Part shown: positions 6,303 through 36,019 of the stretch, one piece after another
Layout: every line of letters begins with the position of its first letter
Position numbering within the stretch: the stretch's first letter is position 1
NCBI GenBank assembly: GCA_905235685.1
Contig: CAJOMO010000002.1
Span: forward strand, 1 to 64,000
Length of the DNA stretch: 64,000 bases
Direction of reading: 5' to 3'
DNA from: an uncultured Selenomonadaceae bacterium
Lineage (GTDB): Bacteria; Bacillota; Negativicutes; Selenomonadales; Selenomonadaceae
The notes under the pieces: generated by a model
What the model saw: the letters and a program-made list of their open reading frames with translations, nothing else
Databases searched by the model: none
Told to the model about the DNA's origin: nothing
Made by a program: the position numbers and the translations under genes

Positions 6303-6872
6303 ATGTCAAATGCACTTAACACAATCACCGTCAACGGCGTAACTTACAATGCCGAATCCTACGCCAATACTCAGACGAAAACCACGAAGGAACAGGAACT
6401 TGACAAAGACGCTTTTATCAAATTGTTGGTTACGCAACTTCAATATCAAGATCCGCTCGACCCGCAGGATAACAACGAATTTATTGCTGAAATGGCGCAA
6501 TTCTCTTCGCTCGAACAAATTACCAATATGACTGACGCGCTCAAAGAAATTAACACGCTCGTTGGAAATATCGATACTTCGGTTTTGGTCGGGCAACTTA
6601 GCGGCATGATTGGCAAGGGCGTTGATTGGACTGAAGCTGTCGAGGCGGCGGACGACGAAGGCAACCCCATTACCACAACGCAGGATTTCAGCGGAATTAT
6701 TACCGGCGTAACCGTTGCTGACGGAACAACCCGCGTTATGGTTTTGGCGGACGACGGCTCTACTCATCAAGTCGACATCGCCAATATCGGCAAAGTTTAT
6801 GAGCTCACTGAAACCAGCGTAACTGAAACCGACAGCGGCGTTGAAACGGTAACTCCCAGCAGCGCCATTTAA
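6303..6872 (+). CDS. flgD: Flagellar hook-capping protein FlgD
   Basis: FlgD is the scaffold at the tip of the growing hook that lets FlgE subunits assemble. The conserved FlgD N-terminal signature is clear: KDAFIKLLVTQLQYQDPLDP followed by NNEFIAEMAQFSSLEQ. The C-terminal half is a short beta-rich region with a GKGVDW turn. The ATG at 6303 is chosen because GGAGG lies eight bases before it; an in-frame TTG at 6288 would sit on top of that ribosome-binding site. The gene follows fliK closely and ends before an intrinsic terminator, so fliK-flgD is a two-gene unit here. Confidence 0.93.
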   Translation: MSNALNTITVNGVTYNAESYANTQTKTTKEQELDKDAFIKLLVTQLQYQDPLDPQDNNEFIAEMAQFSSLEQITNMTDALKEINTLVGNIDTSVLVGQLSGMIGKGVDWTEAVEAADDEGNPITTTQDFSGIITGVTVADGTTRVMVLADDGSTHQVDIANIGKVYELTETSVTETDSGVETVTPSSAI

Positions 6873-6898
6873 AATAAAAATTTCCGAAATAAAAATCG

Positions 6899-6932
6899 CC
6901 CTTCCATTGACAAAATCTTTGGAAGGGTTTTT
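6899..6932 (+). terminator. Intrinsic terminator after flgD
   Basis: Perfect 8-bp stem CCCTTCCA/TGGAAGGG with a 13-base loop, followed by a T run. It closes the fliK-flgD unit 26 bases after the stop codon. Confidence 0.85.
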
Positions 6933-6953
6933 AATATTCGCGGGGGTGATTTT

Positions 6954-7235
6954 ATGAGCGACGATAGAGATTTTTTTGGGGAAAATGCATTCGGCGATAT
7001 GTACGCGGGGACTTTTTTTGAAGATGAATTTCCTAAGCGCCCGCCGGAAAAATCCGCTGACAGTCAAAAAGAAGCCGCCGAAATTAGCGCGGCAACTGCT
7101 CATGTTAGACTTTCAAACGAAATTGACGCCGGTCAAGAAGCGAACAAAGCAATAAGCTCTGCTTACGATTTGAGCGGCAATTTGAATGGCGGTCTGCCTC
7201 CGAGTTTTGCCGGAAGGATTTTCGGCGGTATCTAA
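6954..7235 (+). CDS. Small acidic protein of unknown function
   Basis: A 93-residue protein not recognised. It starts at an ATG with GGGGGTGA upstream and is rich in Asp, Glu and Ala. There is no signal peptide or membrane segment. It begins with a Phe/Gly/Asp-rich stretch (DDRDFFGENAFGDMYAG) and ends in a Gly-rich tail (LPPSFAGRIFGGI). It lies between the flgD terminator and a second terminator, so it is probably transcribed alone or by read-through from flgD. A flagellar or chemotaxis link is suggested only by position. Confidence 0.65.
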   Translation: MSDDRDFFGENAFGDMYAGTFFEDEFPKRPPEKSADSQKEAAEISAATAHVRLSNEIDAGQEANKAISSAYDLSGNLNGGLPPSFAGRIFGGI

Positions 7236-29325: not shown

Positions 29326-29427
29326 ACTTTCTTTTGGCGCAAAAGAAAGTTGCAAAGAAAACAGCGGCGCGGATTGTCACATCACGTGACAAGCGCGCCG
29401 CATTGGGCCGCCATCCGTGGCGGCCTC
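29326..29427 (+). repeat. Triple-hairpin intergenic repeat, copy 3
   Basis: Starts five bases after the fliG stop codon. It has ACTTTCTTTT/AAAAGAAAGT, the linker GCAAAGAAAA, a GCGGCGCG/CGCGCCGC stem around TTGTCAC/GTGACAA, and a perfect 8-bp hairpin GGCCGCCA/TGGCGGCC with a TCCG loop. The middle palindrome is identical to copy 4. Confidence 0.88.
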
Positions 29428-31482: not shown

Positions 31483-32514
31483 ATGGAACGACAAATACAA
31501 CAACTGCGCGAATCAGCGGCAAAGTTGATAGGCGCGGCAACCGATTTAAAAGAACTCGACAACGTCCGCGTTAAAATTTTGGGCAAGAAAGGCGAATTGA
31601 CCGGTTTATTGCGCGGAATGAGCCAACTGAGCGCGGAGGAGCGTCCTAAAATCGGCAAAATCGTCAACGAGGCGCGCGCCCAAATCGAGCAATTAATCGC
31701 CGATAAAAATTCTGAACTCAAAGCGCAGGATTTGCAAAATAAATTGGCGTCCGAAAAAATCGATGTGACACTTCCTGGCAGAAAAATTCATTGCGGGCAT
31801 TTGCACCCGCTCACTTTGACTTTGAACCGCGTCAAGGAAATTTTTATTAATATGGGCTACAGCGTTGAGGAAGGTCCGGAAGTCGAAACGGATTATTTTA
31901 ATTTCGAGGCGCTCAATTTGCCGAAAGATCACCCTGCGCGCGAAATGCAGGATTCGTTTTACATAACCGAAGAAATTTTATTGCGCACGCAAACTTCGCC
32001 GGTACAGGCGCGCACTATGCAAAAAAATCCGCCCAATACTCCAATTCGTATGATAGCGCCCGGCAGAGTTTATCGCCGCGACGATTACGACGCAAGCCAC
32101 GCGCCAATGTTCACGCAAGTTGAAGGCTTAGTTGTTGACAAGGGAATTACCTTTGCCGATTTGAAGGGCACGCTTGATTTTTTCTGCAAACAATTTTTTG
32201 GCGAAAATGCGCAAATCAGAATGCGCCCAAGCTTTTTCCCGTTCACTGAGCCGAGTACTGAAGTTGACGTTTCTTGTCCGATTTGTCACGGCAAGAGCGC
32301 CGATTGCAAGGTTTGTCACGGCAGCGGCTGGCTGGAAATTCTCGGCGCGGGCGAAGTTCACCCCGACGTTTTGAAAATGAGCGGCTATAATCCCGAAATT
32401 GTCAGCGGCTTTGCTTTCGGAATGGGCGTCGAACGAATTTGTATGATTAAATACGCCATTGACGATTTGCGGATGTTTTTTGAAAATGACGTTCGATTTT
32501 TGAGCCAATTTTGA
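31483..32514 (+). CDS. pheS: Phenylalanine-tRNA ligase alpha subunit
   Basis: Catalytic subunit that charges tRNA-Phe, working as an (alpha-beta)2 tetramer with PheT. It has an N-terminal coiled coil for tRNA binding (about 1-85), class II motif 2 ([13 protein letters not shown]), the [10 protein letters not shown] region, and motif 3 ([16 protein letters not shown]). A Cys-rich insertion ([16 protein letters not shown]) precedes motif 3, as in many Firmicutes. Length is 343 residues. GAAGGAGG precedes the ATG. Unusually, an unrelated gene separates it from pheT. Confidence 0.97.
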
Positions 32515-32523
32515 GGGCGCGCA

Positions 32524-33459
32524 ATGTCTAGCGAAAATCCTTACATTATCGACGATACAAATATTGTTTACGAGATTGACCCGCACAAAAGATTTACCGT
32601 ACCGCGAATGACCAAAGGCAGTCAACCGACCGACGGCGGCAATTTAATTTTGTCTGCCGAAGAACGCGACGAACTTATTAAAAAATGTCCGTCCGCTGAA
32701 AAATATATTCGCCGCTTTATGGGCAGTGAAGATTTTATAAACAATAAGATTCGCTATTGTTTGTGGCTGGTAGATTGTCCGCCAAATGAATTGCGAAAAA
32801 TGCCGCCGGTTTATGAGCGCGTTTTAAAAGTTAAAGAATTTCGTTTAAAAAGCAAAAAAGCCGCAACTTGTAAGTGGGCTGATAAAGCCTGGTTATTCAC
32901 TGAAATTCGACAGCCCGACACCGATTATTTAATAGTTCCACGTGTTAGTGGCGAAAGACGAAAATATATTCCAATGGGCTTTATGCAATCAGAAATTATT
33001 GCCAGCGATGCCTGTTCATTTATTTCTAATTGTCCAATTTTCTTGTTTGGAACGTTAACTTCAAATGTACATATGGCGTGGATGCGGGTTGTGGCGGGAC
33101 GGCTCGGTATGAGTTACAGATATTCGGGTACGATAGTTTATAATAATTTTATATTTATCAATGCGGACGCAAAGCGGCGGGCGAAGATTGAGGCGGCGGC
33201 GCAGGCTATTTTGGACGCGCGGGCGAAATATCCCGAGGCGAGCCTAGCTGATTTGTACGACGAAAATGTAATGCCGCCGGAGTTGCGGGCGGCGCACAGG
33301 GCAAACGATTTGGCTGTTATGGACGCGTACGGCTACCCCAAAGACTGGTACAACGACGAGCGCAAAATTGTTATAGATTTATTTCAGCGGTACGAGGCAA
33401 TGCTGAATGGCAATGACCTTTCAAAAATCGCGGCGACCAGTCGAAGAAATTTTAATTGA
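32524..33459 (+). CDS. Orphan target-recognition domain of an MmeI-type (type IIL) restriction-modification enzyme
   Basis: The 311-residue protein matches only the C-terminal third of single-chain MmeI-like restriction-methylation enzymes: the DNA target-recognition domain (GGNLILSAEERDELIKK; YIRRFMGSEDFINNKIRYCL) and the end region (PRVSGERRKYIPMGF; NVHMAWMRVVAGRLG; SGTIVYNNFIF; DARAKYPEASLADLYD). The nuclease and N6-adenine methylase domains are missing. The frame is intact, with its own ATG and GAGGG site, nine bases after pheS and 13 before pheT. It may be a leftover of a transferred enzyme or a free recognition subunit working in trans; no partner methylase is in the window. Confidence 0.82.
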   Translation: MSSENPYIIDDTNIVYEIDPHKRFTVPRMTKGSQPTDGGNLILSAEERDELIKKCPSAEKYIRRFMGSEDFINNKIRYCLWLVDCPPNELRKMPPVYERVLKVKEFRLKSKKAATCKWADKAWLFTEIRQPDTDYLIVPRVSGERRKYIPMGFMQSEIIASDACSFISNCPIFLFGTLTSNVHMAWMRVVAGRLGMSYRYSGTIVYNNFIFINADAKRRAKIEAAAQAILDARAKYPEASLADLYDENVMPPELRAAHRANDLAVMDAYGYPKDWYNDERKIVIDLFQRYEAMLNGNDLSKIAATSRRNFN

Positions 33460-33472
33460 AGGAGCGGATTAT

Positions 33473-36019
33473 ATGCAAGTATCAACAAAATGGTTGAAAG
33501 ACTTCATTGAAATAGATTGCACGGCGGACGAGCTGGCGGAAAAATTTACAATGGCTGGAATCGCCGTTGAGAATGTGATTCGCGCGGGCGCCGGCTTAGA
33601 AAAAGTTGTAACCGGCAAAGTTGCGGAGATTGTTAATCACCCCGATTCTGATCATATGTTTATCTGTCAAATGGACGTGGGCGCGGGTGAATTGATTCAG
33701 ATTGTGACGGGCGCGCAGAATGTCAAGGCGGGCGATATTGTACCGGTGGCGATGGTTGGTGCGAATTTACCTTGCGGGAAAAAAATTGCCAAAGGAAAAT
33801 TGCGCGGCGTGGTTTCAAATGGTATGCTGTGCAGTGCCGACGAACTGAAAATTGAAGGCGACTCAAGCGGCATTTTCATTTTGCCGAAAGATACGCCGGT
33901 TGGAGTTCCTGCGGCTGAAGTGCTCGGGCTTGACGACGACATTTTGGAGTTTGAATTGACGGCGAACCGCGGCGATTGTTTCAGCGTATTTGGTTTGATT
34001 CGTGAGGCGGCGGTTTTGTTGAAAAAGACTGCGCATTTCCCCAAAATTAAAGTTGCCGAAGACGCGGGCAAAAATGCGGCTGATTTGATTGAAATTAAAA
34101 TTGACGCGCCGGATTTGTGCAGTAGGTTTTCTGCGCGAGTGCTGACAGAGGTTAAGCTCGGTCCTTCGCCGGAGTGGTTGCAGAAACGTTTGGAAGGCGC
34201 GGGGATTCGTGCGATTAACAATGTCGTTGACGTGACAAATTTTGTAATGGTTGAGCTCGGGCAGCCGATGCACGCCTATGATTATGATGAAATTGTCGGC
34301 AAAGTTTTGAATGCGCGGCGCTCGGTTGCCGGTGAAGCTTTGCATACGCTTGACGATTCAAACCGGCTTGCTAAGGGCGAGGAACTTGTGATAGCGGACG
34401 CGGAAAAAGCGGCGGGCTTAGCGGGCGTTATGGGCGGCTTTGAAACCGAAATTACCGAGAAAACCAAAACCGTTGTATTGGAGGCGGCGGCTTTTAATGC
34501 GGCGTCGATTCGTCGCACCAGTCGCGCAGTTGGTTTACATTCGGAGGCGTCGGGCAGATTTGAGCGCGGCGTTAACGAAAAGGCAACCGTCATTGCACTT
34601 GACAGGGCGGCTCAGCTTTTGCAGGAAATGGGCGCGTGCAAAGTTTGCAAGGGCATTGTCGATGTTTATCCGAATCCTAAGGCGGCTGTCAAAGTTCAAT
34701 TCACCACGAAACAGATTAACGACCGGCTCGGCACGAATTACAGCGACGCGGAAATTATTGACGTGCTGAAAAGTTTGGGCTTTGAAATTAGCGAAATTGG
34801 CGCGCAAATGAACGCTGAGCAGGCGATTGACAGAATTTCCACAGCGGCTAAAAATTTCGGCAAGATAGCTAAAAATATCGCGCAGGCGGGGCTTACCAAA
34901 ACTTTCGACACGCTGATTGAAAGTAGCGGCGTTAAAAATTTCGTGGCGTACGAGGCGACCGTTCCCGATTGGCGAAATGACGTTACGCTCATGGAAGATT
35001 TATCCGAAGAAGTTGCGCGCATTTACGGCTATGATAAAATTCCCGCCACACTTCCTAAGGGCAGTCAACAGGGGCGTCAATCCAAAACGCAGAATTTCAC
35101 CGACAAAATTAAAAATATCCTGGCAGCGCTCGGTTTAAATGAAGAAATTTCCTTTTCGTTTACCGGCGAAGAAACTTTTAACAAATTGCAAATTCCGGCG
35201 GACAGTGAACTTCGTCGCGCAGTGCCGATTATGAATCCATATGAAAATCCGTTGCTCCGCACGAATTTAATTGGCTCGATTTTGGAAAACGCCGCGCGAA
35301 ATTTGAGCCGCAAAAATGAAGACGTTCGACTTTTCGAAATAGCGCCGGTATTTTTCCCGAAATCTTTGCCGATAACCGAACAGCCGCGCGAAGTTCAAAA
35401 ATTAGTCGGGCTGATAATGGGGCGGCGCGAGCCCAAAGGTTGGGCGCAAAATTCGGCTGACGTGGATTTTTACGACGCCAAAGGAATTGTCGAAGAACTT
35501 TTCGCGCAGTTATCAATTTCAAATTACACGGTAGAGGCGGGCGCGCATTATGCGTTGCACCCGGGCAAAACTGCCATTTTCAAAAAGGGGCGCGAGATTT
35601 TGGCTACGGTCGGTGAAGTTCATCCGGCGGTTGCAGAGGCGTTTGGTATCGGCAAAAAGATTTACATTTTCGAGGCGGATATTGCGACGCTGATTAAATG
35701 CACGGCGAAAAAATTTGCCTTTGAGAATTTGCCGAAATATCCTGCTATAACGCGCGATTTGGCAATTTTGGTTAACCGTGACGTTTCGGCGGGCGAAATT
35801 GAAAAAGTCATTGCGAAGTACGCGGGGAACGATTTTAAGAGCGTGACGCTTTTTGACGTGTACACCGGCGACAGAATTTCTGCCGACAAAAAAAGTTTGG
35901 CGTTTACGATTAAATTTCAATCGAGCGAGCGCACACTCAAGGACGAAGAGGCTGACGCGGCTTTTAAGGATATTTTAAATTCGGTGGAAAAAATCTTTGC
36001 GGCTGAGCTGAGGGCTTGA
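33473..36019 (+). CDS. pheT: Phenylalanine-tRNA ligase beta subunit
   Basis: PheT binds tRNA and carries the editing site of PheRS. Domains: N-terminal plus EMAP-like tRNA-binding domain (about 40-150, HPDSDHMFICQMDVG), B3/B4 editing domain (about 215-385), B5 (about 405-500), the core synthetase-like domain (about 500-690), and the C-terminal FDX-ACB anticodon-binding domain (about 755-848, PKYPAITRDLAILVNRDVS). The length of 848 is about 45 over the usual 800, and the excess lies in B5 (about 442-488, Ala/Lys-rich). The ATG at 33473 has GAAGGAG upstream; an in-frame start at 33407 would overlap the preceding gene. Confidence 0.96.
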   Translation: MQVSTKWLKDFIEIDCTADELAEKFTMAGIAVENVIRAGAGLEKVVTGKVAEIVNHPDSDHMFICQMDVGAGELIQIVTGAQNVKAGDIVPVAMVGANLPCGKKIAKGKLRGVVSNGMLCSADELKIEGDSSGIFILPKDTPVGVPAAEVLGLDDDILEFELTANRGDCFSVFGLIREAAVLLKKTAHFPKIKVAEDAGKNAADLIEIKIDAPDLCSRFSARVLTEVKLGPSPEWLQKRLEGAGIRAINNVVDVTNFVMVELGQPMHAYDYDEIVGKVLNARRSVAGEALHTLDDSNRLAKGEELVIADAEKAAGLAGVMGGFETEITEKTKTVVLEAAAFNAASIRRTSRAVGLHSEASGRFERGVNEKATVIALDRAAQLLQEMGACKVCKGIVDVYPNPKAAVKVQFTTKQINDRLGTNYSDAEIIDVLKSLGFEISEIGAQMNAEQAIDRISTAAKNFGKIAKNIAQAGLTKTFDTLIESSGVKNFVAYEATVPDWRNDVTLMEDLSEEVARIYGYDKIPATLPKGSQQGRQSKTQNFTDKIKNILAALGLNEEISFSFTGEETFNKLQIPADSELRRAVPIMNPYENPLLRTNLIGSILENAARNLSRKNEDVRLFEIAPVFFPKSLPITEQPREVQKLVGLIMGRREPKGWAQNSADVDFYDAKGIVEELFAQLSISNYTVEAGAHYALHPGKTAIFKKGREILATVGEVHPAVAEAFGIGKKIYIFEADIATLIKCTAKKFAFENLPKYPAITRDLAILVNRDVSAGEIEKVIAKYAGNDFKSVTLFDVYTGDRISADKKSLAFTIKFQSSERTLKDEEADAAFKDILNSVEKIFAAELRA

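Follow-up and report, generated by a model that had tools for sequence, protein, structure and literature searches.

Type IIL restriction-modification enzymes are viewed as single chains, each with one recognition domain that sets the specificity of cutting as well as of methylation. In other systems, e.g., the pneumococcal tvr locus, silent specificity cassettes are linked to the expressed gene. As excerpts of the structural paper on MmeI describe it, the DNA is held between the recognition and methyltransferase domains of the enzyme (PMC4833311), and excerpts on BsaXI describe an S subunit that works as part of an (RM)2S complex (PMC11997821). Within the titles and abstract openings of the open-licence literature we found no description of a stand-alone family of MmeI recognition proteins. 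The main text of the genome paper on Quinella (PMC9585023) contains none of the words methyltransferase, phage or CRISPR, and has restriction in one reference only. Here we describe a protein family in which MmeI-type recognition domains stand alone and which is expanded in Quinella, a genus of rumen Selenomonadaceae, starting from one member found between the two genes of phenylalanyl-tRNA synthetase (PheRS).

Gene layout, domains and predicted fold

The window, i.e., the whole 64,000-nt stretch analyzed, belongs to a Quinella genome (G000). Its pheS gene (31483 to 32514, plus strand; Pfam tRNA-synt_2d, 2e-102, and Phe_tRNA-synt_N) and its pheT gene (33473 to 36019, plus strand; identified by Pfam domains, with the start codon checked) are separated by positions 32515 to 33472, and nearly all of this gap is taken up by a third gene on the same strand (32524 to 33459). 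This gene has an ATG start and an intact frame of 311 codons. Spacers of 9 nt and 13 nt set it apart from the pheS stop and from the pheT ATG at 33473, respectively, a spacing as tight as the original prediction had stated. That prediction had also given the gene its own ribosome-binding site, for which GAGGG at 32513 to 32517, overlapping the pheS stop and kept in the related genome G041, is a plausible candidate; an AGGAG for pheT lies at 33460 to 33464.

The protein consists of the recognition and C-terminal parts of an MmeI-type enzyme, as had been claimed. Pfam identified MmeI_TRD (PF20466) at residues 23 to 211 (2.6e-68) and MmeI_C (PF20467) at residues 216 to 292 (33169 to 33399; 5.4e-20), and found no nuclease, spacer or methyltransferase domain in the 311 residues; the N-terminal, spacer and methyltransferase domains were all found in a full enzyme of the same genome. 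The nearest solved structure is MmeI (5hr4), residues 615 to 903. An AlphaFold model, built on an alignment of 28 sequences (27 of 139 search loci were used), had a mean pLDDT of 87.3, low only at residues 1 to 22 and near the C-terminal end, and superimposed on 5hr4 at 1.1 Å over ~270 residues with 45% identity in the structural alignment. From this fit, the recognition fold is complete in the predicted structure.

A short dispersed repeat, recognized by like translations, is common to window positions ~29350 to 29392, 3' of a gene resembling fliG by eye, and to ~6820 to 6880 of locus L006 in the same genome, at the end of an MmeI gene.

Selection on the protein

In G041 the same gene lies between pheS and pheT and codes for a protein with 95% amino acid identity. 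Between both genomes the gene shows a dN of 0.027 and a dS of 0.308 (omega 0.087, bootstrap 0.043 to 0.149), with 13, 7 and 49 differences at the three codon positions. These 69 nucleotide changes introduce no stop codon and 16 amino acid changes, while random placement of the same number gave a stop in 92% of the trials and 47 amino acid changes on average. As dS and omega are near the values of the neighboring pheS (omega 0.129, dS 0.340) and pheT (omega 0.114, dS 0.380), the insert dates from roughly the time at which the two species split, and its constraint is no weaker than that of the synthetase genes themselves. Neutral evolution or a broken frame, as in a pseudogene, is rejected by this omega range and the lack of stops, and the claim that the fragment is not decaying holds. 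Other pairs of stand-alone genes at orthologous sites had omega values of 0.12 to 0.28.

A family of stand-alone recognition genes in Quinella

The protein was matched in 56 of the 66 genomes of the genus. By reading the surrounding DNA we verified, among part of the matches listed, at least 42 stand-alone genes in 25 of the 66 genomes, one to four per genome. Comparisons of cores and mosaics used 53 separate rows, namely, these 42 and 11 that were contig-edge, frameshifted, tandem or outside the clade described below. A tree was built from the recognition domains of 79 out of 89 ORFs, the remainder having less than ~225 aligned residues. In it, 38 stand-alone rows made up one side of a branch with support of 96/95, and no full enzyme fell inside this clade. 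Six separate rows lay outside it: a tandem pair in G054, behind a gene that looks like hemC by eye, a G017 copy directly 3' of a full enzyme, a frameshifted gene in G023 and two rows at contig ends. They suggest that such genes may have originated on more than one occasion. In the tandem pair (L123, 5019 to 6864, contig G054:C49) the two genes overlap by 11 nt. Another recognition gene (L276, 1 to 1065, contig G017:C45) follows the apparent end of a further one at the contig start.

A family-wide search (189 genomes, 30 genera) placed most of the matches listed from other genera in long frames of enzyme size, with some shorter ones (e.g., 378 to 451 aa). The best 80 genome loci contained 70 recognition ORFs with a catalytic part and 11 without, 4 of the latter from Quinella. 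Among the other seven, only that of a Synergistales MAG (L183) resembles a stand-alone gene; L158 has a broken methyltransferase end upstream, L168 begins with methyltransferase residues near a contig start, and the rest are edge or frameshift cases. The L183 gene (1185 to 2255) codes for a 356-aa protein with MmeI_TRD and MmeI_C and has neighbors that look like an exonuclease gene and gltX by eye.

We also considered a phage-borne anti-restriction gene and rejected it, as 59 viral loci contained 55 recognition ORFs with a catalytic part and 5 without. Of these 5, two were short pieces, one had a separate catalytic ORF next to it, one was at the edge of its contig and one coded for 270 aa. In the two best GenBank phage records the match lies inside coding sequences of 1,626 and 2,784 nt.

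DNA-contact residues

We mapped onto the family, via 5hr4, the contact residues and position code of MmeI as given in excerpts of PMC4833311. On this mapping, codons 195 to 199 (33106 to 33120) correspond to MmeI residues 806, 808 and 810, by which the enzyme reads the bases at positions 6 and 4. The pairs reading position 6 in the 38 stand-alone rows were K/R-D (19), E/T-R (11), G-S/T (7) and D-A (1). The K-D and E-R pairs are known from enzymes; R-D and T-R were seen here only in stand-alone rows. Compatible pairs were found in 37 of the 38 rows, against a mean of 14.0 and a maximum of 25 in 10,000 shuffles, which ignore relatedness, with compatibility classes defined after the residue table had been seen. 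The pair switched 14 times on the tree, and these switches bear on the matter of relatedness.

The contact residues of the window protein are K31, Q34, K112, R140/D162, A163, R199 and G195/S197. The MmeI code predicts from them a G at position 3 of the site (R140/D162), a purine at position 4 (A163/R199) and perhaps a C at position 1, while positions 2 and 6 are not readable by this code. At several contact positions the protein differs from both full-length enzymes of its own genome.

Possible catalytic partners and function

The stand-alone copies probably function as specificity proteins, as opposed to being debris; of the roles that had been proposed, that of a specificity protein fits best with the selection, the paired contacts and the exchange of cores described below. 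Paired contacts that are under selection while the specificity changes would be expected of a recognition protein that works together with methylation or cutting. Because the protein has no catalytic part, such coupling would have to occur in trans, and the simplest partners would be the resident MmeI-type enzymes; contact residues unlike those of the resident enzymes are as expected of an added specificity. We give a probability of about 0.4 to the reading that the window gene is one copy of a dispersed stand-alone family that lends specificity in trans to MmeI-type enzymes. In this reading the host operon would supply each recognition protein in steady amounts, and the protein would dock with its C-terminal domain and non-core surfaces on an MmeI-type enzyme. 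It would bind there to the methyltransferase-nuclease part, either replacing the enzyme's own recognition domain or sitting next to it, and one catalytic chain could thereby methylate and cut additional sequences. The extension to the whole genus is a more tentative proposal: a dispersed set of interchangeable recognition proteins, which housekeeping operons would express and the swapping of cores would renew, would join single-chain Type IIL enzymes in trans, and a small number of catalytic chains would thereby recognize many different sequences.

The source genome (99.8% complete) has two full MmeI-type enzymes, each with its own recognition domain, and full-length MmeI-type catalytic genes are present in 22 of the 25 genomes with stand-alone copies. 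This co-occurrence is not clearly stronger than in genomes that have no stand-alone copy. No strong MmeI catalytic match was found in the other three (G003, G009 and G041, whose assemblies are 79, 76 and 85% complete), and G003 gave no Eco57I match either. The methylase without a recognition domain that the original prediction had proposed to search for was not found. Among the MmeI-type catalytic genes read, no chain was built that way: all had their own recognition domain, were frameshifted or were cut by contig ends. A frameshift probably explains the sole separate catalytic ORF (G023:C16), another two genes have their break within the recognition part, and inspection of other methyltransferase loci in G000, G039 and G041 revealed no such partner. 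Extra conservation of the C-terminal domain, which would be a sign of docking, was not seen (mean identity 0.552 in stand-alone proteins versus 0.570 in full enzymes).

Additional recognition domains are also found directly behind full enzymes (G017 and G040) or fused to one (G000). The fused case (L006, 6823 to 10044, contig G000:C13) has a second, half recognition domain, and in G040 half a domain forms a separate ORF behind the enzyme (L128, 4490 to 4885, contig G040:C31). In G017 (L067, contig G017:C55, ~6860 to 6960, minus strand) a tract of 11 C's lies where the end of the full gene overlaps a separate recognition gene in another frame, and slippage there could fuse the second recognition domain to the enzyme, perhaps in a phase-variable way. 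We also noted methyltransferase-recognition proteins of ~700 aa without a nuclease part (L122, 9369 to 11498, in G017; L125, 1716 to 3806, in G054), coded between genes that look like an oxidoreductase subunit and murC by eye.

It is unlikely that the proteins act as lone sequence-specific DNA binders (site blockers, decoys of sites for methylation or cleavage, or local regulators) that need no catalytic partner. The three genomes without a strong MmeI catalytic match would fit such a role, as would the keeping of contact residues and selection in proteins devoid of any catalytic domain. However, since MmeI as described in the excerpts of PMC4833311 holds its DNA between two domains, the recognition part alone may bind weakly, and swapping of specificity brings no evident gain to a mere binder. 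For a decoy of the cell's own enzymes, as had been suggested for the window gene, the difference between its predicted contact residues and those of both resident enzymes is unfavorable.

Exchange of the DNA-reading core

The DNA-reading core, codons 31 to 186 of the window gene (32614 to 33081), is exchanged between the copies of relatives. At the gatB site, G022 and G005 have flanks that are 92 to 100% identical and a C-terminal part that is 95 to 100% identical, versus 50 to 80% in most of the core, with a dS of 1.17 in the core versus 0.048 in the C-terminal part. As codons 5 to 30 have a dS of 1.04, the left break of this exchange lies within them. The same pattern was found between G058 and G039 (dS 0.92 in the core versus 0.32 in the C-terminal part). 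The G022 core is most similar to a stand-alone gene of G039 that occupies a different site (79% over 452 nt). Pairs within one genome, in G023 and in G028, likewise have closer ends and more distant cores, and the full enzymes L075 and L275 show core exchange too.

That the copies are mainly a reservoir of recognition cassettes, which donate cores by recombination to full enzymes and to each other while the protein itself matters little, is decidedly unlikely. Such a reservoir would account for the movement of cores between stand-alone genes at different sites, for a 114-nt stretch that a stand-alone core has in common with a G005 full enzyme (89% identity) and for the core type that groups the full enzyme L081 with the stand-alone L070, L071 and L285. 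Yet all pairs of the 53 separate and 41 full rows revealed no clear recent tract between a stand-alone and a full gene, the recent-looking mosaics being confined to contig-edge or frameshifted rows. Copies that merely donate DNA would not be expected to be under purifying selection where they stand, as these are at an age equal to that of their flanks, and would have no need of tight coupling to the upstream gene.

Genomic sites of the copies

Stand-alone copies occupy many different gaps, mostly in housekeeping operons, and several sites are common to more than one species. Besides pheS/pheT, identified by Pfam, they include trpB/trpA, gatB, tmk/rnmV, murC/ftsQ, cobU and a place behind an HSP70-like gene, most of these names being assigned by eye. 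The trpB/trpA copy of G027 overlaps both neighbors by 4 nt. Of 41 copies, 34 share their strand with the upstream ORF and 22 lie at most 20 nt from it, with orthologous sites counted separately and neighbors picked by length, so that a few may be wrong. Stand-alone copies recur near the HSP70-like gene and a gene of ~1,075 aa without a Pfam match, and in G032 a broken full-length MmeI gene takes their place behind the HSP70-like gene (L044, L052, L053, L281 and L282; L118).

Because the copies sit in many operons, the link of the window gene to PheRS is incidental. A functional tie to the synthetase is rejected and the fixed ratio between both proteins that had been suggested is not supported, as operons other than this one contain the majority of copies and other inserts, too, occur between pheS and pheT. 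We read this gap in 31 of the 62 genus genomes with a pheS match: 2 have the gene, 18 have gaps of 12 to 585 nt, 6 have gaps of 701 to 1,188 nt without it and 5 show no pheT in the stretch read. Among these relatives G041 carries the insert; G040, which is as close to G000 by pheS as G041 is, lacks it. In L061 a stand-alone copy lies upstream of pheS, and the pheS-pheT gap measures only 83 nt. Other inserts occupy gaps of 585 to 1,188 nt (L099, L089, L090, L093, L096, L109 and L110), that of L099 resembling a toxin-antitoxin pair by eye.

It is distinctly improbable that the copies are passengers, carried by small mobile units into the gaps of operons and persisting without benefit to the cell. 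The variety of gaps, this uptake of other inserts between pheS and pheT, the unrelated flanks of paralogues within one genome and the toxin-antitoxin genes, such as YafQ and YoeB, that adjoin several copies would all suit a passenger. Against it, unsystematic inspection noticed no transposase or flanking repeat at the copies, and an omega of ~0.1 over a dS of 0.3, together with the ordered residue pairs, points to selection on the protein.

A dead remnant of a full MmeI enzyme can hardly be entertained: the domain content does equal the C-terminal third of an enzyme, and G032 has a broken full-length MmeI gene behind the HSP70-like gene, a site shared with stand-alone copies, but the copies form one old clade with intact frames and omega far below 1, and the 31 pheS-pheT stretches hold no catalytic sequence, which together with the selection test rejects the progressive truncation of an enzyme at that place.

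Comparison with known systems

If the proposed role as specificity proteins acting in trans is true, dozens of separate, selected recognition genes in one genus would make Type IIL specificity modular in trans. They would be a natural supply of MmeI recognition modules, with contact pairs that can be read, for use in engineering, and might account for the diversification of methylation in an uncultured genus of the rumen.

The family shares with MmeI and the Type IIL enzymes (5hr4; PF20464, PF20465, PF20473, PF20466 and PF20467) the recognition and C-terminal domains and the same contact positions. It differs from them in being coded by separate genes in dispersed copies, as stand-alone proteins without nuclease, spacer and methyltransferase. 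HsdS of Type I systems and the S subunit of BsaXI are also recognition-only polypeptides whose specificity changes by module exchange. However, the Quinella proteins have a single MmeI-type recognition domain and exist in many copies unlinked to restriction-modification genes, and the search for a catalytic chain that lacks a recognition domain of its own found none. In Helicobacter pylori, according to excerpts of PMC3077401 and PMC3983042, recognition sequences likewise move between genes and replace each other; this movement takes place within or between complete specificity or methyltransferase genes, whereas in Quinella the recognition part is a conserved gene of its own. The pneumococcal tvr cassettes, as excerpts of PMC6265443 present them, resemble the family in that extra recognition sequences are kept in the genome, but the Quinella copies are scattered, have start signals and are selected as proteins.
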